Position numbers and translations under genes: made by a program
IMG/VR virus record: IMGVR_UViG_3300031952_000028
Coordinates: 1 to 48,731 of that record
Reading direction: 5' to 3' (one strand)
Origin: a virus
DNA: 48,731 nt
The notes under the pieces: generated by a model
The model's input: only the letters and a program-made list of their open reading frames with translations
Told to the model about the DNA's origin: nothing
Database searches by the model: none
Shown here: positions 1,870 through 31,300 of the stretch, piece after piece
Layout: each line of letters opens with the position of its first letter
How positions within the stretch are numbered: the first letter of the stretch is position 1

Positions 1870-2249
1870 GACATCACCGCTTCCCTGGTCCACCGGCCAT
1901 CAGCCTCGTGATAATAATATGCCCAGCGCATCCAGGGGAACATCGCAGCGGCCACTTTCATCTTAACCGCCGCATCATCCCTCTTGCTCGTCCATTGTTT
2001 TTTATACACCTTCCCGCTTTTTGATCGTACCATCTTGGCCATACCTCTGGCCTTCACGTCTACCAGCTCGAAGTGGTCAGGATACACGATCATAAAATCA
2101 GGTGTATATGTCGTTCGGTCTGCAAGTCGGAAGATCCATGATTCAAAAGCCCAGTCGAGGATTTCCTTTTCCAGCTTTTTGGCCTGCAGGAGCCAAGCAA
2201 ACTCCTCCTCGATAGAGTTCATTTTATTTTCCGGCTTTATTGGCACCAT
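1866..2249 (-). CDS. DUF1064-like PD-(D/E)XK nuclease
   Basis: A 127-residue protein. The core shows RLADRTTYTPDFMIVYP followed by ELVDVKARG, the PD...(D/E)xK arrangement of the DUF1064/VRR-NUC-type nuclease superfamily; a WxSKRDDAAVKMKVAAAMFP helix follows as in that family. Such phage proteins are taken to be structure-specific endonucleases for recombination intermediates. GGAG 5 nt before the ATG at 2249 supports this start, which overlaps the sigma-factor gene end by 13 bp. The catalytic acid and lysine appear intact. Family assignment is from memory of the motif pattern. Confidence 0.75.
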   Translation of the reverse strand: MVPIKPENKMNSIEEEFAWLLQAKKLEKEILDWAFESWIFRLADRTTYTPDFMIVYPDHFELVDVKARGMAKMVRSKSGKVYKKQWTSKRDDAAVKMKVAAAMFPWMRWAYYYHEADGRWTREAVMS

Positions 2250-3013
2250 AACATCTCCAATTCTTTACTTTTTTTCAATTTACGAAGAGCTTTTGCTTCG
2301 ATCTGGCGCACCCTCTCCCTGGTAATACCAAATTTTTTCCCGATCATTTCAAGCGTCTGTTCTTCGCCTGTTTCGAGGCCAAATCTTTTATACAACACTT
2401 CTTTCTCACGATCTGTCAATTTTTTTATAACTTCAGCAATTTTTTTATTTATTTCTTCATTACAGATGATTTCTAAAAAATTATCATTACTTTTTAATGT
2501 TTCAGAAAAAATAATTTCGGTTCCCTGAATAAACTCTTCCAGGGAATGAATTCTTTTCGATATCTTCAGGAGATTGATAATTTTATCAGTTTTGAAGCCG
2601 GTCAAAATTTCAACCTCTGAAATATCAGGTTCCCGATTAAATTTTTTCGTAAAGAATTTAACAGCCCTTTTTACTTTAGATAATTGATCGTAAACATGAC
2701 TAGGCATCCGGATACATCGACTTTTATTATTAATAGCCCGCTGGATAATCTGTCTGATCCACCAGATAGCATAGGTACTGAATTTGTTTCCCTGGCTGCA
2801 ATCAAACCGTTCCATCGCTGTAATCAGACCAAAAACACCCTCCTGAATCATATCCTCAAAATCAAGCCCTGCCTCAGTACAATGATAAAATCTTTTTACT
2901 ACGCTGACGATCAGGCCCATATTAGCTTTGATAAATTCTTCCCTGGCCGCTTGGTCGCCGGATTGAAGCCGTTCGATGAGTGATTTTTCTTCTTCCGATG
3001 ATAATAGTTTCAT
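2237..3013 (-). CDS. Phage-encoded sigma70-family factor
   Basis: A 258-residue sigma factor without region 1.1. Region 2 spans about residues 25-95, with the -10-reading helix NKFSTYAIWWIRQIIQRAI (76-94). Region 3 runs about 100-160, and region 4.2 lies at 220-246 with the HTH TLEMIGKKFGITRERVRQIE. The layout is that of group 2/3 primary-like factors rather than ECF. It should redirect host RNA polymerase core, perhaps to middle or late phage promoters. Unlike its neighbours it lacks a good ribosome-binding site: only AAGG 14 nt upstream, right after a pentamer array. Translation may therefore be weak or controlled. Confidence 0.92.
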   Translation of the reverse strand: MKLLSSEEEKSLIERLQSGDQAAREEFIKANMGLIVSVVKRFYHCTEAGLDFEDMIQEGVFGLITAMERFDCSQGNKFSTYAIWWIRQIIQRAINNKSRCIRMPSHVYDQLSKVKRAVKFFTKKFNREPDISEVEILTGFKTDKIINLLKISKRIHSLEEFIQGTEIIFSETLKSNDNFLEIICNEEINKKIAEVIKKLTDREKEVLYKRFGLETGEEQTLEMIGKKFGITRERVRQIEAKALRKLKKSKELEMLWCQ

Positions 3014-3029
3014 GATATTTAAAATAACC

Positions 3030-3109
3030 TTGCCATGCCTTGCCTCGCCGTGCCGTGCCTTGCCAAGCCAAGCCTAGCCTCGCCGGGCCACGCGAGGCCT
3101 TGCCTCGCC
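3030..3109. repeat. Degenerate pentanucleotide array 1 (NNGCC x16)
   Basis: Sixteen 5-bp units of the form NNGCC (GGCNN on the transcribed minus strand); one unit deviates (ACGCG) and a partial unit follows. The dinucleotides run TT AT TT TC GT GT TT AA AA TA TC GG, one deviant, AG TT TC. It sits between the gene at 3141-3668 and the sigma gene, and is joined on its sigma side to the minus-strand string GGCAAGGTTATTTTAA, shared with arrays 2 and 3. Confidence 0.9.
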
Positions 3110-3111
3110 TG

Positions 3112-3137
3112 GCATTACCATCTTCCGATGGTAATGC
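3112..3137 (-). other. Perfect 10-bp hairpin between cistrons
   Basis: GCATTACCAT and ATGGTAATGC form an uninterrupted stem around the 6-nt loop CTTCCG (plus-strand sense). It begins 3 nt after the upstream stop codon and abuts pentamer array 1. There is no T-tract, so it is more likely an mRNA processing or stability element than a terminator. Confidence 0.6.
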
Positions 3138-3140
3138 AAT

Positions 3141-3668
3141 TTAAGAAAAAAGCTTAGCTTCGAGACCTGCTAATTCTTCTTTCATTTTCTTGATAGCCAG
3201 TAAGCTTTCCTCTTGCCTGGCAATCGCTTCCTTTGATTTTTTTAACCCTGAGATTGCCTTACCTTCGATTACATTGAGACCGGAAGTGACTCTGTTCATA
3301 AGATGAACCATGTCTTTTTTTTGCTCAGCGGTCAGATTTTTGATATCGAGACCTCCAAGCTCTGTCTTGCAAAATTTAAGCTGATTACCTGCCTTTTTCT
3401 TGTGACCGGCAGCATGGATTATCTGGATATCGTTACAGGATATTTTGTATCCTTCCATCCAGACGTTGACAAGAATATTTTTGTTTTCCTTTATGAGCTG
3501 CCTGTTAACGGTATAGATAATATTTCTATCATTTCTGACATCAAATCCGATTATGGATTTAATGCTATCCCAGGCAAACATATCGCCCACGGCTGATTCT
3601 TTTACTACCTTATACAATGCTTTCCATTGAGGACAATTATCCTCAATCATTGTTTGTAACAATGCCAT
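3141..3668 (-). CDS. Hypothetical early phage protein, C-terminal coiled coil
   Basis: A 175-residue protein. The open frame continues upstream into the pentamer array, giving a spurious Arg/Gly-rich N-terminus. The real start is the ATG at 3668, preceded by GGAGG with 7-nt spacing. The N-terminal half contains VGDMFAWDSIKSIIGFDVR; the middle has HAAGHKKKAGNQL; residues about 110-175 are helical and charged (KKSKEAIARQEESLLAIKK), a probable coiled coil. I do not recognise the family. Its place between replication helicase and sigma factor suggests an early role, possibly DNA binding (inference). Confidence 0.7.
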   Translation of the reverse strand: MALLQTMIEDNCPQWKALYKVVKESAVGDMFAWDSIKSIIGFDVRNDRNIIYTVNRQLIKENKNILVNVWMEGYKISCNDIQIIHAAGHKKKAGNQLKFCKTELGGLDIKNLTAEQKKDMVHLMNRVTSGLNVIEGKAISGLKKSKEAIARQEESLLAIKKMKEELAGLEAKLFS

Positions 3669-3701
3669 GATTAATCCTCCTTTGAGTAAATTAAAATAAC
3701 C

Positions 3702-3781
3702 TTGCCTCGCCCCGCCTTGCCTAGCCTCGCCTTGCCCCGCCTGGCCTCGCCATGCCTTGCCTCGCCTCGCCAAGCCTAGCC
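3702..3781. repeat. Degenerate pentanucleotide array 2 (NNGCC x16)
   Basis: Sixteen perfect NNGCC units: TT TC CC TT TA TC TT CC TG TC AT TT TC TC AA TA. GCC is invariant and only the dinucleotide varies. On the minus strand it lies directly upstream of the ribosome-binding site of the 3141-3668 gene, after the shared junction GGCAAGGTTATTTTAA. Confidence 0.92.
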
Positions 3782-3794
3782 ACGAAATAAAATA

Positions 3795-4394
3795 TTAGCA
3801 AATTTTGAAATTTTCAAGCTCAAATTGCCCGAACTTGCCTGGCTTCGGGCTTCCCGGACGCCATTCCATAAGGCCCTCTTTGTCACCGGCCTTTATTAAT
3901 AATTCTTCTAACGTTTTCTTGTTGATTATTTTGTCATAAACTTTGATTCTGAACTTAACGCACCATCCAGCAGGAAGACAGACACGGGTTCTGGTTACCC
4001 GTGACTTACCAATTACTACCGCACATGAAAATAGCCAATCATTTTTCTTGATATCATTTATAAAAACAAAATTATTATTGAATAATAAATAACTCTCAAA
4101 TCCTTCGTATCCATCACCAATGATATCAGCTCCGGGAGTAATAATTTTTGATAGAAAATTCTTCCCTATCTTCGTTCCTGGCGATGCATCCCTTAGCATT
4201 GCCTCAAGGTTAAGTGCAGGGATTACCAATTTTGTCTTATCTTCCTTGCTTGTGTAGATTGTGGTAAGCCATTCGTCGCCATAATCGGTTTCTTTGTCTG
4301 TTTTTTTATTGGTTTCGATTATTCCGCACTTATGGATAAGTAAAGAAGTTATTCCCCTTAATTCTACACTTGCCGTATAAATAACTTGCTTCAT
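3795..4394 (-). CDS. Hypothetical protein, possible RAMP/Cas7-like fold
   Basis: A 199-residue protein with GGAGG 6 nt before its ATG. It starts with a strand and turn (ASVELRGITSLLIHK), has VIPALNLEAMLRDAS near residue 60, a basic strand VVIGKSRVTRTRVCLPAGW and a glycine-rich end MEWRPGSPKPGKFGQFEL. A 'promote to the pocket' segment plus a C-terminal glycine loop resembles RAMP-type RNA-binding proteins and a set of phage proteins of unknown role. This is a weak resemblance from reading, not a proven homology. It is flanked on both sides by pentamer arrays, so an RNA-binding role would be attractive but is unsupported. Confidence 0.6.
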   Translation of the reverse strand: MKQVIYTASVELRGITSLLIHKCGIIETNKKTDKETDYGDEWLTTIYTSKEDKTKLVIPALNLEAMLRDASPGTKIGKNFLSKIITPGADIIGDGYEGFESYLLFNNNFVFINDIKKNDWLFSCAVVIGKSRVTRTRVCLPAGWCVKFRIKVYDKIINKKTLEELLIKAGDKEGLMEWRPGSPKPGKFGQFELENFKIC

Positions 4395-4427
4395 GAAATA
4401 CCTCCTTTAAGTAAAATTAAAATAACC

Positions 4428-4527
4428 TTGCCTCGCCCCGCCTTGCCTTGCCTCGCCGTGCCGTGCCTTGCCAAGCCGGGCCACGCCTGGCCTTGCCTGG
4501 CCTTGCCCCGCCATGCCTTGCCTCGCC
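4428..4527. repeat. Degenerate pentanucleotide array 3 (NNGCC x20)
   Basis: Twenty perfect NNGCC units: TT TC CC TT TT TC GT GT TT AA GG AC TG TT TG TT CC AT TT TC. The run TC GT GT TT AA is shared with array 1, so the arrays are related by duplication. Same minus-strand junction GGCAAGGTTATTTTAA before the ribosome-binding site of the 3795-4394 gene. Confidence 0.92.
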
Positions 4528-4549
4528 ATGATAAAATTTTATATCATCT

Positions 4550-6181
4550 TCATCCCACCGCGGACAATTGCCGGTTAACCCTCTTTGCATTCTTCTTAGC
4601 AAAAAATTGCCCGATCAGATCTGTAGCATCTCCTTTACTGATGCCTTCCTGATATGCCCCAATTTTTTTAAGCAATTCGATTTGCTTCTCACTGGCCAAA
4701 ACCTTCCGCCATTTTGCATTTTTTGCCGCAAAGGTTCGCCCGCCATTCCTGCGGACGTAATCCTCGCACACACCTTGCCCGTAACCCAGATTAAGTGGCG
4801 TAGGGTGCAGCAACTCCGGCCCTGCATCCTTGCAGATCACGAACGCCTGAAAATGTCCGCCACCATCGGGCATCAAAATAGCATTCACTCCGGGAGACAC
4901 AGGTAAAACCCACTGCTGCCCATCAAAAATCCAACGGAATTGAGATTTGTTAAGTAAATCAAACTCCTCGATTGAGATAGGAGGCAGGTCAAAGGAGAGC
5001 TGCTCATAAGCTTTCTTTTTTTGGTCCTCTTTCTCCGGTTTCTTTTCCGGCTCTTTGAGCGTCTCAATAACCGATTTACCGTCCTGCATCCGGTCGCCGT
5101 CCCATCCGAGCAGATCAGGCAGGCCACAGATATCGTGCCTGTTATCGCAAAAATCAATTACTACGCAGTCAGTTTTTCCCGGATGCCGCCGGGTGCCCCT
5201 GCCTACACATTGAGTGTAAAGTGCCTGGCTCTTCGTAGGACGACACATCAGAACACACTCTATAGTCGGCTCGTCAAAGCCTTCAGTGAAGAGGGCACAG
5301 TTGGTTAATATCCTGATATCACCCCTGGAAAATGCTCGCAGCGCCTCCGCCCTCTCCTCCTCCGGAGTAAACCCGCTGAGCGCCTTTGCCTCGATGCCGT
5401 TTCCCCTGAATATCTCCGCCAGGTCCTCCGAGTGCTGAACATTGGCGCAGAAGGCAAGAGCTTTACGCCCTGGAGCGTGCTCCTGATAGCTCTTTATTAC
5501 CAACTCGTTTCGCTCTTTGGTATTGACAGCCTGGGCCAGTTGCGATTCGATGTAATCTCCACACCGGGTTCCAACCCTGGAGAGATCGGTCTCGGTCTGC
5601 GCCCGGTAGCCGCGGATATCAGACAGATATCCGGCGCGGATCATGGTCAGAATGCTCACCGAGTACACGATTTTTTGGAAAATATGGCCCAGGCCCAGGC
5701 CGTCCATCCGGCACGGAGTGGCAGTACAGCCGAATAGCACCCGGCGCGGATCATCTGAGCCAAAGCCCAAACCATCAATAATGTAACGATACGTATCACT
5801 TGCAGCGTGATGGCTCTCATCGACAACGAGCAGGCCGAAGCCCTCATCGAGGACCTGGCTTAATCGCCTTTTTCTTGAGAGCGTCTGGACCGAGGCACAA
5901 ACTACATTTTTATCGTGAAAGTCATTCTCTTTGCCCTTGACCACTCCGATTACTGCCTCCGGCCAGACCATCGAGACTTTATCCGCAGCCTGGCGGATCA
6001 ATTCGTCACGATGGGCCAGGATCAACGTTTTACGCCTCGATCTGCGGGCCATTTCGGAAAATATGATAGTCTTCCCACAGCCTGTGGGCAACACGGCCAG
6101 AATACGTGTCAAACCCTCGCGGGAGGCATTGCGAATTTCGGTAAGGGCATCTTCCTGATAATCCCTGAGTTGTATTGCCAT
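4550..6181 (-). CDS. SF2 DNA helicase (DEAD/DEAH type)
   Basis: A 543-residue superfamily 2 helicase. Motif I PTGCGKT lies at about 32-38, motif II DESH at 121-124, motif III GCTATP at 151-156 and motif VI QCVGRGTRR at 324-332, all intact. Residues beyond about 390 form a phage-type C-terminal extension with EFDLLNKSQFRWIFDGQQW. Such proteins unwind or remodel DNA and RNA at phage forks, and several phages encode one beside SSB, as here (10 bp from the SSB gene). It probably acts in origin opening or recombination-dependent replication (inference). Confidence 0.9.
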   Translation of the reverse strand: MAIQLRDYQEDALTEIRNASREGLTRILAVLPTGCGKTIIFSEMARRSRRKTLILAHRDELIRQAADKVSMVWPEAVIGVVKGKENDFHDKNVVCASVQTLSRKRRLSQVLDEGFGLLVVDESHHAASDTYRYIIDGLGFGSDDPRRVLFGCTATPCRMDGLGLGHIFQKIVYSVSILTMIRAGYLSDIRGYRAQTETDLSRVGTRCGDYIESQLAQAVNTKERNELVIKSYQEHAPGRKALAFCANVQHSEDLAEIFRGNGIEAKALSGFTPEEERAEALRAFSRGDIRILTNCALFTEGFDEPTIECVLMCRPTKSQALYTQCVGRGTRRHPGKTDCVVIDFCDNRHDICGLPDLLGWDGDRMQDGKSVIETLKEPEKKPEKEDQKKKAYEQLSFDLPPISIEEFDLLNKSQFRWIFDGQQWVLPVSPGVNAILMPDGGGHFQAFVICKDAGPELLHPTPLNLGYGQGVCEDYVRRNGGRTFAAKNAKWRKVLASEKQIELLKKIGAYQEGISKGDATDLIGQFFAKKNAKRVNRQLSAVG

Positions 6182-6191
6182 AATCTATTCC

Positions 6192-6578
6192 CTAAAACGG
6201 AGCCACATCGCCGCTATCCCTGTTTTTGCCATCGTCCCCCTTGCCGCCATCCCCTTTTGGCAAAAATTGCAAAACCTGTGCGACAATTTTAACCCGGCTC
6301 CTCGATTTTCCACTTTCATCCTCCCATCGGTCCTGTTTCAGTCGTCCCTCAATGAGTACCGGACTCCCCTTGCTCAGATATTCGCTGGCAATTTCCGCGA
6401 TCTTGTCCCAGGTCTCAACATCAAAAAAATCGACCTCGTCTTTGCGATCGTCACCCTTGCCGGTTTTGTGATTCACCGCCAGGGAGAATTTTGCCACGGC
6501 TATACCTGCTTTAGTGTAGGTCAATTCCGGATCTTTGGTCAGGTTTCCGACTAAAATTACTTTATTAAACGTTGCCAT
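6192..6578 (-). CDS. ssb: Single-stranded DNA-binding protein
   Basis: A 128-residue bacterial-type SSB. The OB fold begins FNKVILVGNLTKDPELTYT and continues through KIAEIASEYLSKGSPVLIEGRL. A short linker leads to the C-terminal tip SGDVAPF, a shortened form of the acidic DDDIPF tip that docks host repair and replication proteins. I use the ATG at 6578; a TTG one codon earlier also stays in frame. The start overlaps the preceding stop by one base (TGATG), implying translational coupling. Confidence 0.95.
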   Translation of the reverse strand: MATFNKVILVGNLTKDPELTYTKAGIAVAKFSLAVNHKTGKGDDRKDEVDFFDVETWDKIAEIASEYLSKGSPVLIEGRLKQDRWEDESGKSRSRVKIVAQVLQFLPKGDGGKGDDGKNRDSGDVAPF

Positions 6579-6779: not shown

Positions 6780-7238
6780 TCAAATAGTCATTTGCCTGTC
6801 GGCCATCGTCATTTTTCGATTTTCCACAATTTCATACGTATCAAGACGTTGAGCAATAACGTATCCCGTCGCAAAATCCCTGACCGTTTCGCAGTCAATT
6901 TGCCGATACTCATATCCGGAGCTGATTTTCTCTGCACACTCCGAAATAACCGCCTCCGCCTGTTTTTTTCTCGCGTTAAATTGACCTTGGATGCTCTTCA
7001 ATTCATTAGTTACCGAGTCTTTTTCTTTCACGTTGCGAGCCATTTCCTCAGAGAGAGTTTTCTTTTCGGACTCAGTAAACTGATATTTTAAAAACTTCTT
7101 ACTTTTTTCTCTGTCACCGGCATCAGCATGTTTTCCCATCACTACTTCAGCCATCTGAGAGGCCATTAAAACATCCTCTGCATCTGCTGCCAATTCCTTA
7201 GCAGATTTCGTTTCTTCCTGTACATCCTTTTTTCTCAT
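6780..7238 (-). CDS. Hypothetical coiled-coil early protein
   Basis: A 152-residue protein. Residues about 40-110 are strongly helical and charged (EKKTLSEEMARNVKEKDSV, then QGQFNARKKQAEAV), a predicted coiled coil. The C-terminus has the pattern SGYEYRQIDCETVRDF...QRLDTYEIVENRKMT that recurs in a group of phage early proteins of unknown function. Its ATG overlaps the primase stop by 4 bp, and the next start is about 20 bp downstream, so it belongs to the replication operon. Confidence 0.7.
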   Translation of the reverse strand: MRKKDVQEETKSAKELAADAEDVLMASQMAEVVMGKHADAGDREKSKKFLKYQFTESEKKTLSEEMARNVKEKDSVTNELKSIQGQFNARKKQAEAVISECAEKISSGYEYRQIDCETVRDFATGYVIAQRLDTYEIVENRKMTMADRQMTI

Positions 7239-8509
7239 AAATTTTGTACCTCCCTATATACTTTTAATGCCTCCACCCAACTTCCCTGCCAAAGATTATA
7301 AGCCTCGATAAAATCATTTATTTTCAATCTTCCGGCCATAACCAAATCATAGACCTCCGCTATCCAGGCAAAATCTTCCTGCCATGTTTTAATAAAATCC
7401 GGCCTGTTTTTTTCAATCCAGGTATAACAGTCACAGGTGAGGGTCCTATCGTATGCCTCCACCCCTGCCGCGGAAATGGCCGCCATGATTCCGGAGAAAT
7501 CCTTTTCATCAATATTGTCCAACTGCTGAATAATTGGCACCTGTATTGGCGCGGCAATGTCCAAGGATTTTCTGGTTTGTCTATGCTTTTGCTCGTGTGC
7601 CTGCGGAAAATATTTATTGATTCCGATAGCTATCCATTCCTGAAGTTCCACTCCGTTTACCCACATTTCCCCAGGATCTTTTCCCTCGATCGGGGGGAGC
7701 CTGCGCGCCTGTGGAAAATGCTGCATCCACCACTGCGCCTCTTTCGCTCCCGGATTCTGCCCATCCTCCCTGTCCTCATCACTATCCAGCGCCACCAGGA
7801 TCAAATCCGCTGCCTGTAACAACTCAAAAGCCCGTTTGTCCGGCCTGACCGATGCGCTGCCAAGGGCCACCACTCCGGCAAGGGGAGAGGCCATATTGCC
7901 AAGTTCCTGAGTCAGAAGAATAGCGTCAAACTCCGATTCGACTACCACAATGACCTGGTGGGGTTCGGTCGGGATCATAGCCGCCGAAGTGGAGCCGGAA
8001 ACTATTGCATAAGCCGGCCCCTGTTCGGGGGTGCGGCTCTGTTGATTTAACCGCCTGATTTTCGCTCGCTGAAGAATCCCGTCAGCAAAGTATGGGATCA
8101 CGATCCCTTGCGGCAGCCAGATATCCTGTTGTGTGCCGTCTTCTTTGAGCTTTTCAGGGAGACCCCAGAAAACACGCTCACGATTCAATCCTACGGGGTT
8201 CCACCCCAGGCGTGATAGTTTGATCGTGTCGAGAGTCAGCCCCCTCTCAGAACGCAAATAAGAGAGGATTCCGGTATTATTTAAAAGCTGCGCATATGCC
8301 CAGTCAACAAAAGCAGAGCACTTTTGGGTCCATTCAGGTGAAGGCGGAGTAATTTCCCGCGGGGTCCACTTGCGGCCATTACCATTCCTTTTTTCATATT
8401 GCTGGAACTTGCCGCAATCTGCACAATCTACACGGAGGTGGACCATCCCGTTTGAGCAAATCTGATCACTTTTTTTTAAATTATTGCTTCCGCAATGTTT
8501 GCATGTCAT
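7235..8509 (-). CDS. DnaG-like TOPRIM primase
   Basis: A 424-residue primase. An N-terminal zinc ribbon uses C3, C6, C29 and C32. The RNA-polymerase-like part follows, and the TOPRIM domain has its glutamate in VIVVVESEFDAILL (E191) and the DxD in LVALDSDEDRED (D242, D244). There is no helicase domain; the C-terminal region (about 330-424) is helical and may dock a helicase or SSB. It makes RNA primers for lagging-strand synthesis. Its ribosome-binding site is weak (CAGGTAG), and a candidate short ORF overlaps its start by 29 bp. Confidence 0.9.
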   Translation of the reverse strand: MTCKHCGSNNLKKSDQICSNGMVHLRVDCADCGKFQQYEKRNGNGRKWTPREITPPSPEWTQKCSAFVDWAYAQLLNNTGILSYLRSERGLTLDTIKLSRLGWNPVGLNRERVFWGLPEKLKEDGTQQDIWLPQGIVIPYFADGILQRAKIRRLNQQSRTPEQGPAYAIVSGSTSAAMIPTEPHQVIVVVESEFDAILLTQELGNMASPLAGVVALGSASVRPDKRAFELLQAADLILVALDSDEDREDGQNPGAKEAQWWMQHFPQARRLPPIEGKDPGEMWVNGVELQEWIAIGINKYFPQAHEQKHRQTRKSLDIAAPIQVPIIQQLDNIDEKDFSGIMAAISAAGVEAYDRTLTCDCYTWIEKNRPDFIKTWQEDFAWIAEVYDLVMAGRLKINDFIEAYNLWQGSWVEALKVYREVQNL

Positions 8510-8733: not shown

Positions 8734-9384
8734 TTATGTCTATTAACATATTGATAACGTTATAAAAGTAACATTGTTACCCTTTTGTTACCTTTTTATC
8801 ATCTATTAATATATTGATAATATTAATCATGTAACCATTGTAACCATTGTAACCTTTTTTGAACGGAGCACACAGCCTATGAATATTCCCTAATGTGTAG
8901 TACATGTGTATTACACGTTCTTGTGCGTACCCTATTCTTAAAAATGGTTACAATGGTTACAATGGTTACATAATAATATCAAATCTTTGTTTTTATTAAT
9001 AATTAATTGTAACCTTTTTAAAAGTAAAAAGGTTACAATGGTTACATTATTGAATTCATTATGTCTATTAACATATTGATAACGTTATAAAAGTAACATT
9101 GTTACCCTTTTGTTACCTTTTTATCATCTATTAATATATTGATAATATTAATCATGTAACCATTGTAACCATTGTAACCTTTTTTGAACGGAGCACACAG
9201 CCTATGAATATTCCCTAATGTGTAGTACATGTGTATTACACGTTCTTGTGCGTACCCTATTCTTAAAAATGGTTACAATGGTTACAATGGTTACAAATAA
9301 TATCAAATCTTTGTTTTTATTAATAATTAATTGTAACCTTTTTAAAAGTAAAAAGGTTACAATGGTTACATTATTGAATTCATT
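8734..9384. repeat. Tandem 325-bp duplication with TGTAACC/GGTTACA iterons
   Basis: Copy 1 is 8734-9058 and copy 2 is 9059-9384, identical by eye except for small differences including a 1-bp gap near 8971/9295. Each copy holds three TGTAACCAT units at 9-bp steps (8830, 8839, 8848 in copy 1), three inverted GGTTACAAT units (8946, 8955, 8964), a hairpin of TGTAACCTTTTT and AAAAAGGTTACA, and more single motifs, about nine exact 7-mers per copy. The sequence is very A+T-rich and lies between the PrimPol-helicase and primase genes. It is a candidate iteron origin or a regulatory region. Confidence 0.88.
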
Positions 9385-9439
9385 GATTAAATTAAATGAC
9401 AGCACTTTAAAAATATACATTTAACTTGTGTTATTTTAA

Positions 9440-12376
9440 TTAAAATGGTAGTATTTCACTCTCATAACTCCAAAATTCGGAAAGTTCAAGCCTTTTGATT
9501 GTCATTTTGTCAATATTTAGCTCAAAAGCTTTTCTTACGTTTTGCCCAATTCTTACAGGTTTGTTACTGTTCATGTAGTACGATTCTCTTTGTAACTGCT
9601 TTTTGAAGATTGATTCCGGCAACAAATCACCTTCGAATCTATAAGATTTTGCCCACTTTAGAAACTTTGGATAAGAACCATGAACATATAGCCTTAAAAC
9701 TGATATTCCAGGTTCATAAATGATATCGTAATCAACATCTTTCTCTAAATAATCCTGGTAGGAATATTGTCTCTCTTCTCTGTTTCCTATAGTTTTAGTC
9801 TGGAATTCACACATTAAACACATAGCTTCGAGAATTTTGTCAACTGCACTTTTACGGTGGAATGAATCGCCTTCTTTGATCCCTTCCTTAACCGCTACAT
9901 CAACCTGCGATAGGTCAAATTGCATCCCTAACACATCGCTCAAGATCCGAAGACCAAACCTGACCACTGCTGCATTAGTTCGCGGCCTGTCCTCGAGTTC
10001 AGAATCAACCGCTTCAAGCTCCTTTTCCAGGATATTTTTGACCTCTTCCCTGCCCATTCTGAGAGCCTTTTCCAGGATAGACCGACCCAGTTTTTCAAGT
10101 GGTTGTTTGCGCAATTCTTTAAAGTTTTGCAAATATGGAGAACTATCCCTTTTAGAGAGAAACACGGTGACAAACCTATCCAGTAAGGCAGATTCGGTGA
10201 ATCCGGTTTCTCCGATTATTACCACGGGTGCCTGATATCGATAAACCTGTGTAGTCTGATCGGCCCTGCCCCGCTCACCTTCGAGACAATTATAAATTGA
10301 TCTTATGAGATTACTGATAAGGTTCTGGAAGTAATCTGTCTGCATACATGCCTTATTTTCTTCCAGAATTACAGGTATCGTGTTTGAGCCGTCAACCATT
10401 TTCATCATTGTGAATTTAGTGAGTTCACCGATAGATTTTGGTTCCCCCTGGATAGCCCACATTCGCATAATAACCGCTTCTGCACTTTGCGTTTTCCCCG
10501 ATCCAGCTTCCCCTTGGATGTTCAAAAGAGGGAATCCGTTACTTAAGCCTATTTCATCCAAAGTTTCCGAGATAATGGATTTTAAAAAGCAAGCTGTAAT
10601 CCATCCCAGGACAGGTAAGGATACTATGGAAATATTGAAGTTAGCGATATGCTTTCTTATCCCTGAAAGTTCGTCTGCTGTAGCCGGTTCCACGGATAAT
10701 AGCTTGCAGTTAGTAGGCACCTCATTAAAATAGACAACATCCTCAGATATGCCTTGGATAGACAAGGCACCCTCTTCGGTAACGAATTTACCATCGTGAA
10801 AACCTGAAGTCCTCACTCCAGCCTTGTGTGCCATCTCGAAGGTAGACATAAGAAATCTGATATACTGAACATCTATCGTACTTCCAGCGAAGACGGTTTC
10901 CTTGCCTGGCAGGACATTCATAAACTTTTGGGTATTTGACCAACATCCGGGAGGGAATAAGACTTTTTTAAATTCTTTGTATCCAGCTTTGATATTTACG
11001 TTGAGAGTTTCACCTTCACCTTTGATGGTAATTGATTCGATAGGTTCAATGCTAAAAGTGGTTATCTGCACCTCTTCACGGATCTTTTCTCCGAATCTTT
11101 CCTTAATCTTAATTTTCCAAATTCGGCCATCTTTCTCGAAAACCGGATTACTGATGTAGCGGTTTAATTCTTCTTCAGTATTTTTCAGCGCCTTGGATTC
11201 GGTCTCTTTTTGTGCTTTTTCTTCCTTCCATGCCTTCAAAAGACCTTTTATCTCGTCAGCACTAAGAGAGAATTTTTTTTTGAGTTGTTCCTTTAGGATT
11301 CGGTTAACTTTTAGCTCATCACATTCAATAAGATCATTCAGAACGAAATATCTAACCTGGCTGATAGCTTCTGTAGGATCTGGATTGACTTCAAGCCTGT
11401 TAATTTTTTTTTTCCATAACTCATCAATATCCTGTCTGTTTTGAGAGATAGCCTCTGCCGAAGTGGCCTGCTTTCCACGACCTCTGCCTTTATAGGTCTC
11501 AATACAGCCCTCAATGGCCCTGGATATGGTCATATCTCCATAGGTCTCTTCTCCATGCCGTTCATCCCATTTATCACGCATCAGACCGGATTGCCTGAAA
11601 AATGCATCTATCCGGTCATAGTCCTTTTTTGTCCAGAAAGCCAATTTTGAACACAGAGAAAGTTCGGCCTCACTTTGAGAGCGAAAACCTGATATATCAC
11701 CTTCCCAGAGGGCTTTAAATTCATGGCCATTTTTGGAATTTATGGCCTTATTGATCAACTCAGTATCGGATATGCTCAGAATGACATCTGTTTTATGCCC
11801 CCCCCCACTGTGTAACCTGCTGGGATGGTCTTCCAACAAACTGAAATGGATATCATTAATTTCATTTTGTCGTTTTTCTATGAGGGCAGGAGTGTTGTCC
11901 AGACGATTTCCGGTTATGGTCAGAAATCGACCCCTGACATAAATTTCGATGTCACCCCTTTTACACCGCCCAATAGGTTTCAGGGCTTCCGCATAAATGT
12001 GTACTCCTGTTCCTGAAGGAGAAAATTCACTATAAGAATTAAGTTGGTCGATGATCTTTTGCGCCCAGGGGAGAATAACGCCATTTTCAACGCAATGATC
12101 GAGATCGATTCCCGTATAGGGGTCGTCGTCGTAAAATTCAAAACCTAATCCATTATATTTTTTACTTTTTAAAGCATTACAAGCCTGTTCGAAGGTTCCC
12201 CAGGTCGCAGGATCATTCGCTTTTGCTGGATGTCCTGTTTTGGGGTCATAGGGCACTTTAGCCAGTTTGGATTCACCTTTGTCGATAAGTTTGTAACACA
12301 CCCAATGAGGATAATCCCGCAACTGTTGAGGGATATTATTAATTTTCCCAGAAAAATCATTATCGTTATCATTCAT
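9440..12376 (-). CDS. PrimPol (AEP) primase-polymerase fused to SF3-like helicase
   Basis: A 978-residue replication protein. Residues about 15-185 form an archaeo-eukaryotic-type primase: DxD in YTGIDLDHC (D91, D93), SPSGTGVHIYAEA with H126, and IEIYVRGRFLTITG. A helical linker (about 310-400) follows. A C-terminal AAA+/SF3-type helicase has Walker A GEAGSGKT near 622-629, Walker B-like VILEEN near 669-674 and sensor FVTVFLSKRD. Such proteins can prime and copy DNA and unwind it, as in phage and plasmid replicases such as NrS-1 polymerase. No other replicative polymerase is seen in the window. It ends about 55 bp from the iteron duplication. Confidence 0.9.
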   Translation of the reverse strand: MNDNDNDFSGKINNIPQQLRDYPHWVCYKLIDKGESKLAKVPYDPKTGHPAKANDPATWGTFEQACNALKSKKYNGLGFEFYDDDPYTGIDLDHCVENGVILPWAQKIIDQLNSYSEFSPSGTGVHIYAEALKPIGRCKRGDIEIYVRGRFLTITGNRLDNTPALIEKRQNEINDIHFSLLEDHPSRLHSGGGHKTDVILSISDTELINKAINSKNGHEFKALWEGDISGFRSQSEAELSLCSKLAFWTKKDYDRIDAFFRQSGLMRDKWDERHGEETYGDMTISRAIEGCIETYKGRGRGKQATSAEAISQNRQDIDELWKKKINRLEVNPDPTEAISQVRYFVLNDLIECDELKVNRILKEQLKKKFSLSADEIKGLLKAWKEEKAQKETESKALKNTEEELNRYISNPVFEKDGRIWKIKIKERFGEKIREEVQITTFSIEPIESITIKGEGETLNVNIKAGYKEFKKVLFPPGCWSNTQKFMNVLPGKETVFAGSTIDVQYIRFLMSTFEMAHKAGVRTSGFHDGKFVTEEGALSIQGISEDVVYFNEVPTNCKLLSVEPATADELSGIRKHIANFNISIVSLPVLGWITACFLKSIISETLDEIGLSNGFPLLNIQGEAGSGKTQSAEAVIMRMWAIQGEPKSIGELTKFTMMKMVDGSNTIPVILEENKACMQTDYFQNLISNLIRSIYNCLEGERGRADQTTQVYRYQAPVVIIGETGFTESALLDRFVTVFLSKRDSSPYLQNFKELRKQPLEKLGRSILEKALRMGREEVKNILEKELEAVDSELEDRPRTNAAVVRFGLRILSDVLGMQFDLSQVDVAVKEGIKEGDSFHRKSAVDKILEAMCLMCEFQTKTIGNREERQYSYQDYLEKDVDYDIIYEPGISVLRLYVHGSYPKFLKWAKSYRFEGDLLPESIFKKQLQRESYYMNSNKPVRIGQNVRKAFELNIDKMTIKRLELSEFWSYESEILPF

Positions 12377-15216: not shown

Positions 15217-15593
<377 letters not shown>

Positions 15594-24414: not shown

Positions 24415-25662
24415 TTAATCTCCTATCAAATCGAAAGAAGTACTTGGTTTTTTTAAACTCATACTGGCCGAAGGTTTTTTTAAACTCATCATGGCCAATA
24501 CTGCTTTGAACAGAAATCCATCGATAAAATCAAACGGTATTTCTGAATTTTGAGCTATTGTTTTGAGTACATTTACGGAGAAGGTGGAAGTTACGGAAAC
24601 CAGATGAGTGGCCCCTTCTCCGTAGACCAGATCAATGATGATTTGATCGTCATGAATCAACCATTTGAGAGACTGAATATTTATTCCGCTGGTTATCTGC
24701 AACTTTTTTACAAAATCAACAGGGAATTGTTTGTCGACAGAGAGATTCTTTATGAGATTGACGGGTAATTGTTTGTCAACAGAAAGATTCTTTATGAGGT
24801 CAACAGGGAATTGATTATCGACAGAAAGACCTTTTATGAGATTGACAGGTAATTGTTTATCGACAGAGAGATTCTTCACAAGGTCAACAGGGAATTGTTT
24901 GTCAACAGAAAGATTCTTTATGAGGTCAACAGGGAAAACAGAATCTTTTGTGACCAATACTGAAGAGACTGACCACAACCGACCCCGTCCAATCGGTCGA
25001 AGCATGGCATAAGGGTCAGCGTGCATCTGTTTGACGATATTAATATCTGCAATATTGAAAAAGGCGGCATGTTCTGTTATTTCATTAGTTAAATAAGTTC
25101 CATCGCTATATCCCCCAAAAGCAGAAACGATCAAATCGTAATTATTAGGTAAGGTCTGAGTAGCGCCGACCTGACCGCCATTCACAAAAAAGGAAATAGA
25201 TTTTGCACTGCGGGTAATGGCTAAGTTTACCGATTGACCTACAATTTGGGTATAAGAGACAGCCACCACATTGCCCGTCGCCGCTGAATATTTAAATTGA
25301 TTAGAGCTGTTCAGATCAATTGCATAGTGACCGGCAGCCCCTGCCAATATCAATTCGGCAACGGTCGCTGCAAGGATATTTACCTTGCAACAAACCGTAT
25401 GTACCGTGCCGAGATTCAGAGAAGGGAAGGTGGCAATTTTAGTAGTGGAGTTAGCGCCGCCAGGAAAATTGAGACCAGTTGGTGCCCATGTCAAGGCAGA
25501 ACCAAGGGTCAAATTATATTGATTCTTTTTATCGAAACGACTCCCATTCAATGGCCAATACGCACCTAAGTATTGAGACATTGGATGATTTGGATCAATC
25601 TCAAACAATCCTTGAATAGGTTTTTCGTATGGGTTATAAAGACCGTATTTATGCCGAAACAT
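24415..25662 (-). CDS. LamG-like tail protein with 14-residue repeats
   Basis: A 415-residue protein. Residues about 28-210 fit a concanavalin/LamG jelly roll (YLGAYWPLNGSRFD, then LNFPGGANSTTKIATFP and FFVNGGQVGATQTLPNNYDL). After a conserved PYAMLRPIGRGRLW hinge come five full and one decayed copies of FPVDLIKNLSVDKQ (243-326), then a C-terminal strand region. LamG domains bind glycans or proteins, so this is a candidate receptor-binding or tail-tip protein. Its start shares one base with the upstream gene end. Confidence 0.75.
   Translation of the reverse strand: MFRHKYGLYNPYEKPIQGLFEIDPNHPMSQYLGAYWPLNGSRFDKKNQYNLTLGSALTWAPTGLNFPGGANSTTKIATFPSLNLGTVHTVCCKVNILAATVAELILAGAAGHYAIDLNSSNQFKYSAATGNVVAVSYTQIVGQSVNLAITRSAKSISFFVNGGQVGATQTLPNNYDLIVSAFGGYSDGTYLTNEITEHAAFFNIADINIVKQMHADPYAMLRPIGRGRLWSVSSVLVTKDSVFPVDLIKNLSVDKQFPVDLVKNLSVDKQLPVNLIKGLSVDNQFPVDLIKNLSVDKQLPVNLIKNLSVDKQFPVDFVKKLQITSGINIQSLKWLIHDDQIIIDLVYGEGATHLVSVTSTFSVNVLKTIAQNSEIPFDFIDGFLFKAVLAMMSLKKPSASMSLKKPSTSFDLIGD
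24685..24936 (-). repeat. 42-bp coding tandem repeats
   Basis: Six units of 42 bp encode F/L-P-V-D/N-L/F-I/V-K-N/G/K-L-S-V-D-K/N-Q. Units 1, 2 and 4 and units 3 and 5 are most alike, so the block grew by duplication of a two-unit step. Copy number could vary between strains. Confidence 0.85.
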
Positions 25663-26684: not shown

Positions 26685-28344
26685 AAGTGGCGCTGATTTC
26701 AACAAGCAGATGGTCATCATGAAGATAGTAAAAATTTATAATATTATAAACAAATGGTTTTCCTTCCCAATTAGACGGGGAATCATTAGTAGCTCCTATA
26801 AAATATTCCTTTCCTGAAATAGAAGGAGATTCATCAGATTCAACTTCAGTATCTTCAACTATACCCAAAGCGCCTGCGATAATATTAATTTCATTATTAG
26901 TGCTGAAAATTCTATATGAAATTACCTGCGGATCAGGGACTATTGGAACCCAACATTCCTCATCCGGATAAACCCATGAACAAAAACCATATTTTTTATA
27001 AGCTTTATATACTATTTTATATGGTATAGATGACTTTACCATAATTTTTCTTTTGAATGTTTCAGCCCACCACATTTCGAAGCCAAATTCCACTCCATTG
27101 AATCCAACAGTATGTCCGGGGCCTGATGGACATTCCATGCTGGCAGGTTCTGGGTCCCACGAGTCTTCCACTTCCCAATACGGGATATTTACGGTGTATG
27201 TTCCGACGCCAATCTTATCTTCGGAAGCATGCCAGTCGCCGGAATGATAACGATACGGATACTGCACCGTTACCCCTTTGATACAGCCGCAAAAGATCCA
27301 AAATCCATCATCAGGATATTCATCCAGGATTATAGTCCAATACTGGCTTGAAGGGTCATAATTCTGTGCAAAACTCAGGGGACCGGAAACTCCTTCAACC
27401 GAAATGTAAACCCCATCTCCGGTATTGGCAACAATGTGGCCATCATCTCTGACTAATTTCAGCATTATCGTTCTACAGGCAATGCAACCCTTCGGGTTAT
27501 CCTTAAAACCGATAATTACGGGATTGCCCCAGTCCTGATTCCCGAATTTAACCACAACCTTATCATTAATCTCAAAAATCATCCCGTTACAGTCCATGTA
27601 CGAGAAGGGCACATTGAAAAGTCTGGATGATTGATTTACATTGAGATCCTGTTGGCTACTCTTTGCCTGGTCGAGCGATATAGTACACGCTGTGTGATCT
27701 TCACTGAGAAAAGTAATTCTGCCCGTCCGGTATGTCGGTCTGAATTTCTGCCACCCCGGAAGTGCAGCCAGGTTGTTGAACACATTTGCCGGAGACCCCG
27801 CCTGTGCAGGCTGCAAAATTCCGTCCCTTATCCTGCTATAGATGGAATTCCCGCTATATCCCGGCTGGATCTGTATCGATACCCTCTCCCCGGGAATTTC
27901 TATCGTCCCGACCTCTCCGGTCAAGTCTTCTGTCAGATCCGCACACCAGGCCGTAACTACCGGATTTTCAGCATTGAAACCGATAGCATCGAGTTGTTTT
28001 TGAAGCCCTGCCTTTTCAATTTGTTTCAACTGCAGCAATCTCACAGCTTTTTGATAGAGAAAAAGTTTCCCGTTATATTCTTTTGTGGCCGCATCCACCT
28101 GTTCTTTCGTGGCTAATCCAGCCGCATAATCGGCGATGGTCGCATTTAAAACAGTCAGGGCAGTATTTTTTTCAATTTCGGCCAGATACATGGCAGGTTC
28201 AAGATTTAGCAGGATATTAGTAGTAAATTCAGCAATAAGCTTAGTTAATACAATCATTTTTTGTTCTATTCTGGCCGTGTCCCTGACAAGTTCTACCTGA
28301 TAAAGCCCTTTATTTTCGCCTGAAATTATCCTGCCTCTTCCCAT
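26677..28344 (-). CDS. Large tail-tip/baseplate-type protein
   Basis: A 555-residue protein just downstream (in transcription) of the 1069-residue tail protein, with a 1-bp gap. The N-terminal 180 residues are helical with LYLAEIEKN-type heptads, residues about 140-270 look like an OB/barrel domain (SYMDCNGMIFEINDKVVVKF), and the C-terminal half is beta-rich with CPSGPGHTVGFNGVEFGFEM. CxxC pairs (NPKGCIACRT) are present. By position it could be the tail hub or baseplate wedge of this phage; function is not shown by motifs. Confidence 0.65.
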   Translation of the reverse strand: MGRGRIISGENKGLYQVELVRDTARIEQKMIVLTKLIAEFTTNILLNLEPAMYLAEIEKNTALTVLNATIADYAAGLATKEQVDAATKEYNGKLFLYQKAVRLLQLKQIEKAGLQKQLDAIGFNAENPVVTAWCADLTEDLTGEVGTIEIPGERVSIQIQPGYSGNSIYSRIRDGILQPAQAGSPANVFNNLAALPGWQKFRPTYRTGRITFLSEDHTACTISLDQAKSSQQDLNVNQSSRLFNVPFSYMDCNGMIFEINDKVVVKFGNQDWGNPVIIGFKDNPKGCIACRTIMLKLVRDDGHIVANTGDGVYISVEGVSGPLSFAQNYDPSSQYWTIILDEYPDDGFWIFCGCIKGVTVQYPYRYHSGDWHASEDKIGVGTYTVNIPYWEVEDSWDPEPASMECPSGPGHTVGFNGVEFGFEMWWAETFKRKIMVKSSIPYKIVYKAYKKYGFCSWVYPDEECWVPIVPDPQVISYRIFSTNNEINIIAGALGIVEDTEVESDESPSISGKEYFIGATNDSPSNWEGKPFVYNIINFYYLHDDHLLVEISATYD

Positions 28345-28345
28345 G

Positions 28346-31300
28346 TCAGATGCTCTCTATATCCATGTACGTTTTATCGCTGCCAACTGATATCAGAATA
28401 TTGTCTATCTCAATTAATTCATTATTGATATCAACGATATCTCCCGGTCGCAGCATAGTGTTTACACCGCATCTGTGCTTAATTTTGCCACTGCGGGAAA
28501 AACGCCAGGCCCCTAACCGGGTGGATTGCTGATTCTGAGGATTTTTAAGCTCGATTATTCTGGATCCGGACAGGTAATCTGCCGTAAAGGTTCTGGTGCC
28601 GGTCAGGGATATCGAGCTATAATTCGTTGTATATTTCACATTGATATCCTGCAAAATTACATCATATGACCCCTCTATCCGTTCCCCTCCGGGATACTGA
28701 TATTCCCTGCGAAGTCTAAACGTTCCATGCAACCTCGCATTAACCGCCTCCAGCCAGGATGCGGCATCAGGTATCTCAGTGGAAAGTGACATTAAAACAG
28801 GATGAAGTACCCTTCCATATTCTTCCCAGGTTGCCCCATCGTCAACAATAATCGCTCCGTTTCCTGTTGGCCAGGCAGGTTCTGCACTATCCGACGTCCC
28901 AGCCATAGTGCACCGGTATTGATGGAAATTTGCGGTTGTCGGCTGGACTATCTCACCTGACTTATACGCCGTTTCTGCCTGCCACACAGCGAAGTGTCCG
29001 ATATTTTCCCATAGGATTCCATTGTCGTTTACCTGTTGTCCGATCGTAGTCGGCCAGGCAGGTTCCCCGCTCGACTGGGAAATAAGCCCCCCCTCTCTCC
29101 AGTGCAGGGAACCATCAGCAACTATGACATGGCTTCTTGTTGGCCATGTCGGTTCTGCTGATGCGGTCCATCCCCGATTCATCGCCTGATACCAATGTCC
29201 GTTACTTTTACTGACAGTAGGTACTATGCGCTTTCCGGTATCAAAATTACGGATTATCCCCCAGGCAGGGAAAGAATCCCCGCCTCCGGCGCTGGCTGAC
29301 CGGCCAGGAATAATACATCGATATTGATATCCATTTAAAAGTGTCGGGTTGACAATCTGCCCGGCAAAATAATTAGCATCGGCGAACCACGGTGGAATAT
29401 TCATCCGACTCCGCTTTATCACTTTTGAGAGCCTGCACGAAAAAGATGATATCGGGATCTCAATGTCATTCATGCTGTCTAGCCACCCGGTCAAAGTGAG
29501 GATATATTTTGTTTGCACCCTGCCGGATAAAAACAGGGATGCAGGGACAGATCCCATAACGTAGGGATTAGACTTCATGAATCGTATCGTTTTCTGAGGT
29601 ACGGACAGGGCTGACTTTGATGAAGGGTTATATCTGACCAGGCAAAATGTTTTTGTCCCGATAGTGACCCTGCTCTCTGTCGAGGGCACTTTCCGCAGGA
29701 TCGATAATCCCCTGACTGGCACTAATACGGGCATTGTCAAGGGTAATTTTCCGATCAAGCCCATGATAAAGAAAGGCACACTGATCAGAGTACGGACCTC
29801 CTCCGACCCGAAGGTAACGAGTGAATCAAATAGACTGTTATAGGTGGCCTTGACCCAGGCCGCCGATTTGCAGGTATTTAATAAGCGGAATTCATCGAGA
29901 GGTCCATACCAGGATTTTAACCCCGAATCATCTGGGTTATCCCCTATTCTGTGCCAGAGGATTGACCCATCACTAGTCGGTGACTCGCTCGTTATGTCCG
30001 TGGCATTCAAATACACCTTCAGGTTATTACTGGAATCCCTGGTTACTGAGATCAAGAAAAAGGTATCCACAGGCAGTGTTTCGGTAAGATAAATCAGATG
30101 CTCGTCTCCCGTAGTGGTTGAAAACTTAATCATCTGATCAGTGTAAATAACTATACGGCCATCTGCATAGTATGTATCGTTTCCGCCTATTCCTGGCCGG
30201 TTAGTATAGCCGGTAATTTTCCCCAGGGCCATGACTGTCAGCATCCCGGCGGTCTCAATATCATCCGCCAGGTTAATGCAGTCATCATCCCCGTCCATGT
30301 CCAGGCATTTTGCTACCTGCCCATCAATGAGGTCTCCTGATGTCATCGATCCGCCAGACGTGCCGTCGTTATCGTTGCCCGTGGAATCCAGCACAGTTCC
30401 CGCTGGATTCTGATCGAAGTGATACACGATTTTATTTACGCTTTCCCAAACCAATTCAGCCGAAGAACTATTCGTATCTCCGACATAATCAGTATTATCG
30501 GCCTGCCCTGAATCATAATAGAGGTAAAGGATCGTGTCTACGGAAGAAGAGACGTCCGGCACTTTGACATGCAGCCAGGCTTTCTCGCCTGCATCGTCCC
30601 ATTGCTCGATCTCGACATAGAGTTGAGTAAAACCATCATCCGCCGTGACTGCAATTTTCAGCCGGTTTGCATCGCTGCCAAGTTCATCGAATACACAGGA
30701 AGCGTCAATGTCGGAAATGCCCGATGCTGCGCTGAGGTAAATAAGCGCCGGAAAATCGGTTTGGGTATCATCGACTTTGGTATGATCGATAGTGAGTTGT
30801 ATTCTTTTCTGCCAGGTACCGAGCCAGGCGGGAACTAAAATCAATTCATAATTGGCGATAGAATTCGCATTAAACCCGGATTCAATACTTTCCCAACTCT
30901 GCACTGAACCATATTGAGTGGAGTAAATTTTTATGCCGTCAGTAGTAGGAGTAAGAACTTGCTGAACTATTATATCATCCACTTCAAAATAACTATCGCC
31001 ATTTCCGGGTAATAACGCTATTATCAGGTCTGACGCTCCCGACAAATTGGTGCAATAAAAAGGACCTGTGGAAATAGCATTGCCTGTATTTATAGAAAAA
31101 TTTGTCCAACTATTTGGGAAAAATAAAATTCCTATACTTAATAGATAATTACATCGATATGAAAGACCAGCCTTGAATAAATAAGGTAAATTTTCAATAT
31201 TAAGTAATTGAGCAATCCCTGTCCAATCTGCAATATGATCAACCCGTTGAGCATTCCCACTAAATCCGTTGCCCGTGACTATTGATGAAGTCTGTATAGA

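Follow-up and report, generated by a model that had tools for sequence, protein, structure and literature searches.

What are the three arrays of degenerate 5-bp units that lie between the genes of a single operon in this viral DNA? An earlier, sequence-only reading of the window (the whole 48,731-nucleotide stretch analyzed here, positions 1 to 48,731 of IMG/VR virus record IMGVR_UViG_3300031952_000028) described them as (NNGCC)16/16/20 arrays between cistrons, with GCC fixed in 51 of 52 units. The sequence and coordinates were as described, and a recount again gave 51 of 52 intact units. On the + strand, NNGCC units run from 3030 to 3109 (n = 16; one broken unit, ACGCG), 3702 to 3781 (n = 16), and 4428 to 4527 (n = 20). 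Since the genes around the arrays are all on the − strand, the arrays read GGCNN in the transcript. Counted as YNNGG, the three tracts hold 55 units (Table 1).

Across the three tracts, 54 of the 55 YNNGG units were intact and only NN varied (C in 55/55 units, the first G in 54/55, and the second G in 55/55). Substitutions affected 1 of 165 GGY positions and hit NN instead. A 6-fold GCC pattern (≤1 mismatch) had 40 matches in the window, every one of them inside the three arrays, compared to a mean of 0.00 matches in 100 dinucleotide-preserving shuffles of the window; the reversed pattern had 0 matches in the window. No Rfam match was found in the window. Arrays 1 and 3 had been noted to share ordered words, and the common run is in fact six words long (sense TT-AA-AC-AC-GA-AA), a length reached in 7 of 5,000 word shuffles. 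GT-CC is also common to both tracts. Such common runs could have arisen if a guide was duplicated or if the two guides are directed against related sites.

Scanning IMG/VR for the DNA pattern (GCCNN)8, with no other criterion, recovered at least 120 loci. In many of these, the arrays lie between genes, repeatedly beside genes for ~200-aa proteins of the type encoded between tracts 2 and 3 in the window (Vipr). By profile search, the Vipr family was present in 86 of 120 such loci (at least 120 by array pattern alone), compared to 3 of the 80 analyzed from a control scan with CCGNN (82 loci). Arrays with at least five different words made up 107/120 for GCCNN (at least 120 loci) versus 1/80 for CCGNN. 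In the reverse direction, 80 loci fetched by alignment to the subfamily protein alone fell into 30 protein clusters, and sense GGY arrays were located within 1.5 kb of the vipr-family gene in 28 of the 30 (69 arrays sense, 1 antisense). Control motifs near the vipr family numbered 0 for CGG, GTY, GAY, GAR, AAR, and TTY and 1 each for GGR and GCG. What stays constant is thus GGY, read in the sense of the RNA, and it goes with a single protein family. The sequence-only reading had proposed comparing the conservation of GCC with that of the dinucleotide in arrays from related phages and hosts; sense GGY was constant in dozens of unrelated phages.

These data bear on two alternatives. In a simple-sequence expansion, a slippage-prone 5-bp repeat without function would have been spread by recombination, as the six-word run common to arrays 1 and 3 might suggest. 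This explanation is already contradicted by the linkage, polarity, and substitution data and is extremely improbable: substitutions spare GGY, the arrays in unrelated phages accompany a single gene family and keep to one strand, and the CCGNN control arrays almost always have low word diversity and rarely lie near the vipr family. Reshuffling by recombination from a pool of words, also raised earlier, may add something in the case of the six-word run but leaves the fixed GGY, the polarity, and the link to vipr unexplained. Equally hard to credit is a coding or DNA-structural repeat, such as a translated repeat or a (G/C)3NN motif affecting DNA wrapping. The motif does fit a class of nucleosome-excluding repeats, [(G/C)3NN]n, that occurs in eukaryotes. 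However, eukaryotic nucleosomes are absent from the hosts of tailed phages, and the three arrays are located between likely genes. The sense polarity relative to vipr (69:1) favors RNA rather than duplex DNA, and the linkage to vipr also speaks against this alternative.

Proteins of the Vipr family are ~200 aa long, with an N-terminal GxxPLLxH motif and a C-terminal Gly-rich GxGDxRPxxxxFGxF motif that is conserved in the family. An AlphaFold2 model of the window Vipr (63 sequences) had a pLDDT of 83 and a pTM of 0.80. Its best Foldseek matches in the PDB (E = 1e-6) were to Csm3/Cas7, which form the backbone in type III CRISPR complexes, and VIA-align gave a Z of 12.3 and an rmsd of 4.0 over 155 residues against Csm3/Cas7 (matches span 155 to 160 residues). 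The protein is predicted from this model to have a Csm3-like RAMP fold. Against PDB sequences, the family profile retrieved “SUSP1 Vipr protein” 36pp (E = 4e-41), which was also the sole match to the window Vipr used alone (E = 0.0015). The family HMM matched SUSP1 protein ALH47069.1 (28474 to 29061 of KT454805; E = 2e-47), and the window and SUSP1 Vipr proteins have phrog_4652 in common. The model, the Gly-rich motif, 36pp, and phrog_4652 agree with a RAMP homologue that has an RRM core and a G-loop, as in VIPR. PADLOC had no model for the window Vipr and Vap proteins.

VIPR (Viral Interference Programmable Repeat) was first reported in 2026 and consists of a phage-encoded ancestral RAMP protein (Vipr), vrRNAs made of tandem YNNGG repeats and a 3′ tail, and accessory vap genes (PMC13142463; bioRxiv 2026.04.26.720920). 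The vrRNAs copurify with Vipr, and intact GGY is needed; in the tested systems, NN pairs specify double-stranded DNA (dsDNA) with one base skipped per repeat, binding represses transcription, and the natural targets are satellites and prophages (PMC13142463). We assign the window locus, with vipr, vap, and three vrRNAs, to VIPR with high confidence. The earlier statement that no element of this kind had been described is overtaken by that publication, and the locus is a divergent new member of a system that is itself already known. The suggestion that GCC is selected as a bound RNA gains support from homology, given that the arrays flank a Vipr/RAMP gene, that GGY is constant in the sense strand, and that vrRNAs have been reported to copurify with Vipr (PMC13142463). 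Very likely, selection maintains GGC because it forms the scaffold by which an RNA is bound to protein.

Table 1. Features of the vipr operon and its repeat tracts (window coordinates)
Feature	Position	Strand	Description
ResIII/DEAD helicase gene	4550..6181	−	Neighbor; upstream of vrRNA 3
vrRNA repeat tract 3	4426..4530	−	21 YNNGG units, all intact; gap between helicase gene and vipr
3′ tail start of vrRNA 3	4417..4425	−	TTATTTTAA; continues into vipr Shine-Dalgarno
vipr	3795..4394	−	199-aa RAMP/Cas7-like protein; phrog_4652 (PHROG of SUSP1 Vipr)
vrRNA repeat tract 2	3700..3784	−	17 units, all intact; gap between vipr and vap
3′ tail start of vrRNA 2	3691..3699	−	TTATTTTAA
vap	3141..3668	−	175-aa accessory protein related to SUSP1 Vap1 (phrog_5926)
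Perfect 11-bp hairpin, GGAA loop	3112..3137	−	Directly 5′ of vrRNA 1, after vap stop codon; −17.4 kcal/mol, z −5.5
vrRNA repeat tract 1	3028..3112	−	17 units, one broken (CCTCG); gap between vap and sigma-factor gene
3′ tail start of vrRNA 1	3019..3027	−	TTATTTTAA; ends a few bases before sigma-factor start codon
Phage sigma-70-type RNA polymerase factor gene	2237..3013	−	Neighbor; directly downstream of vrRNA 1

The operon runs in the order helicase-vipr-vap-sigma, with one guide tract per gap, and the window also encodes a terminase, a portal protein, an integrase, and a primase-polymerase, which places the locus in a phage or provirus, as is the case for VIPR. The accessory vap gene of VIPR is likewise present. 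An iterated profile grouped it with SUSP1 vap1 (28034 to 28471) and ~28 other genes, nearly all adjoining vipr; SUSP1 Vap1 is phrog_5926, which the window Vap matches weakly (E = 0.002). A vap1-type gene in the window points to the SUSP1-like group of VIPR. Vap, folded from an alignment of the window and IMG/VR loci, was predicted to have a helical, winged-helix-like N-terminal part plus long helices. A fold search with Vap gave no match at E ≤ 0.001 and weak winged-helix matches to the N-terminal part. Vap is probably DNA binding. Searches for close relatives with the helicase and sigma-factor genes as queries returned none or one distant locus, and blastn of positions 2200 to 6300 returned only ~100-bp matches (73 to 81% identity) in three phage records.

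TTATTTTAA comes directly after each of the three tracts. Their 3′ flanks were 93% identical over 10 nt and 70% identical over 20 nt, compared to only 27% for the 20-nt 5′ flanks, so that the window tracts have the invariable 3′ tail after the repeats that is characteristic of VIPR. The tail is short and A/T rich and heads toward the next start codon; folding of the three window tails was no better than that of shuffles. Tracts 2 and 3 pass via the tail into AAAGGAGG, after which come the start codons of vipr (tract 3) and vap (tract 2). Immediately ahead of the sigma-factor gene is tract 1, for which AAGG, in its last unit, is all that is available as a Shine-Dalgarno sequence. The earlier description of the arrays as lying just before ribosome-binding sites thus applies well to arrays 2 and 3, whereas array 1 has no separate strong Shine-Dalgarno sequence. 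This position is a property of the window locus and not the point of the element.

The same arrangement could nevertheless be read as a set of cis-acting leaders, in which Vipr or another protein would bind GGC repeats in the mRNA and regulate how vipr, vap, and the sigma-factor gene are translated, with no guides acting in trans. Each array lies 5′ of a gene, arrays 2 and 3 reach the Shine-Dalgarno sequence of that gene, the tail is unstructured, and the scans described below found no target. However, SUSP1 and many other loci have arrays downstream of genes or in long tandem sets, the hypervariability of NN is unexpected for a simple leader, and the homologues show trans-acting guide function (PMC13142463), with which a leader function could coexist. 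We regard purely cis-acting leaders as improbable. It is possible, if doubtful, that guide tracts double as mRNA leaders, each tail reaching or overlapping the region where vipr, vap, or the sigma-factor gene begins to be translated. Vipr loading or RNA processing would then couple guide production to the translation of all three genes. If so, the locus would exert feedback on the phage’s own transcription program.

For the assignment to VIPR that we favor, the transcription, processing, oligomerization, target recognition, and biological role of the window locus, which belongs to an uncultivated phage, are proposed by analogy with tested homologues. The arrays would be transcribed, and the GGY triplets would seat one Vipr subunit per 5 nt of RNA, with the NN pairs displayed. 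These pairs would then base-pair with dsDNA reading NN-x-NN-x, where x is the one skipped base, and the bound complex may keep a rival phage, satellite, or prophage from being transcribed. Vap, as a candidate DNA-binding protein, might help the complex.

Targets were sought with the window guides and with those of the other loci. The three window guides, allowing skips of 0 to 3, gave nothing above shuffled guides in ~1.8 Mb of DNA. In the same ~1.8 Mb, 170/359 vrRNAs from all loci gave no excess at any skip, and this collection is too small to test the skip rule. Exact 9-dinucleotide one-skip seeds were also scanned against IMG/VR and GTDB genomes. Seeds from vrRNA 3 had one viral match (L237, in frame NHVPLNTTEK) and one genome match (L246, in frame QVPLKTTEN), those from vrRNA 2 had seven matches, three of which are copies of one low-complexity site, and those from vrRNA 1 had one. 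No natural target emerged from the IMG/VR and GTDB seed scans: the matches were either short, without convincing extension past the seed, or of low complexity, and all were treated as chance. Guides read with the skip at the codon wobble position spell plausible peptides, which for vrRNA 3 is [IM][DE][KN][IM]G[KN][HQ][KN][HQ]VP[FL][KN]TT[DE][KN][KN]G[DE][KN]; the target is not identified thereby.

In comparison with VIPR of Escherichia phage SUSP1 (KT454805; PMC13142463; PDB 36pp), the window likewise has a phage-encoded, ~200-aa RAMP-fold Vipr of phrog_4652, a phrog_5926-type vap directly downstream of vipr, and, as VIPR requires, sense GGY/NN tracts in the gaps around vipr; in SUSP1, arrays flank the vipr-vap pair at either end. 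Protein identity is low, however, and the window repeats are GGC, whereas those of SUSP1 are mostly GGT. SUSP1-type vrRNAs have 9 to 16 repeats (PMC13142463), and the 17, 17, and 21 of the window fall outside this range, which we take as descriptive rather than defining because VIPR architectures vary among seven types (PMC13142463). A pseudoknotted tail is reported for the SUSP1 clade, in contrast to the short, unstructured tail in the window, and is a feature of that clade rather than a defining one. The window also differs in having a sigma-factor gene downstream and one vrRNA per gap, leading toward the next Shine-Dalgarno sequence, whereas most SUSP1 vrRNAs are downstream of genes.

The likeness to class 1 CRISPR lies in the RAMP fold of the Cas7/Csm3 backbone (VIA Z of ~12), and an analogy has been drawn between Cas7/Csm3 and VIPR, in that RNA is bound at periodic intervals and positions of the target are skipped (PMC13142463). 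The window locus differs from class 1 CRISPR in its 5-nt rather than 6-nt period, its single small protein, and its 5-bp units in place of repeat-spacer arrays, and neither a CRISPR array nor other cas genes are among the annotated window genes. Resemblance was also seen in two cultured phages, Trine (Gordonia) and LittleE (Mycobacterium), which match the family HMM at E < 1e-50 and have sense GGC arrays beside the gene; both differ from the window in being actinobacterial phages, and LittleE has several array-like tracts up- and downstream. In the regions concerned (4800 to 5490 of L154 for Trine and 4660 to 6429 of L155 for LittleE), the vipr-family genes, Trine gp41 and LittleE gp34, are annotated as hypothetical and adjoin GGC arrays, and LittleE gp33 is a vap-family gene.

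VIPR is a remarkable and very young kind of system. Scans independent of the VIPR paper recovered from raw sequence its GGY/NN arrays, the strand on which they lie, and their association with one RAMP family. A plain DNA pattern search is thus an efficient route to further members. With its longer guides, minimal tail, and one guide per gap, the window member may help define the minimal needs of a vrRNA.

Two small sets of loci from the scans depart from the general pattern. The three control CCGNN loci that carry the Vipr family (L256, L265, and L284) may do so by chance or have a different consensus. Three other loci (L103, L111, and L130) have (GCCNN)n arrays of nearly one word (e.g., GCCTT ×13) without the Vipr family in the stretch of locus analyzed and may be microsatellites or truncated loci.

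Several other repeats were observed in the window. Two nearly identical, apparently noncoding ~325-bp copies lie head to tail at 8739 to 9388, contain TGTAACCAT/AATGGTTAC iterons and a hairpin with a 15-bp stem, and sit between a primase-like gene (7235 to 8509) and an NrS-1-like polymerase gene (9440 to 12376). This repeat may be a replication origin. The 978-aa protein encoded at 9440 to 12376 has an NrS-1 polymerase HBD domain (Pfam PF22763); the earliest known primase-polymerase of the NrS-1 type came from a phage of deep-sea vents. At 100 to 165, the DnaA-box-like sequence TTATCCACAGT is present about six times. GGCTAC/GGCTCA-type repeats with periods of 12 and 18 at 15218 to 15570 lie in a + strand reading frame for a Gly-rich repeat protein; their units are 6 nt long, and they are not a vrRNA. 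A 42-bp tandem repeat (5.3 copies) at 24715 to 24936 is located inside an open reading frame on the − strand (24415 to 25662).
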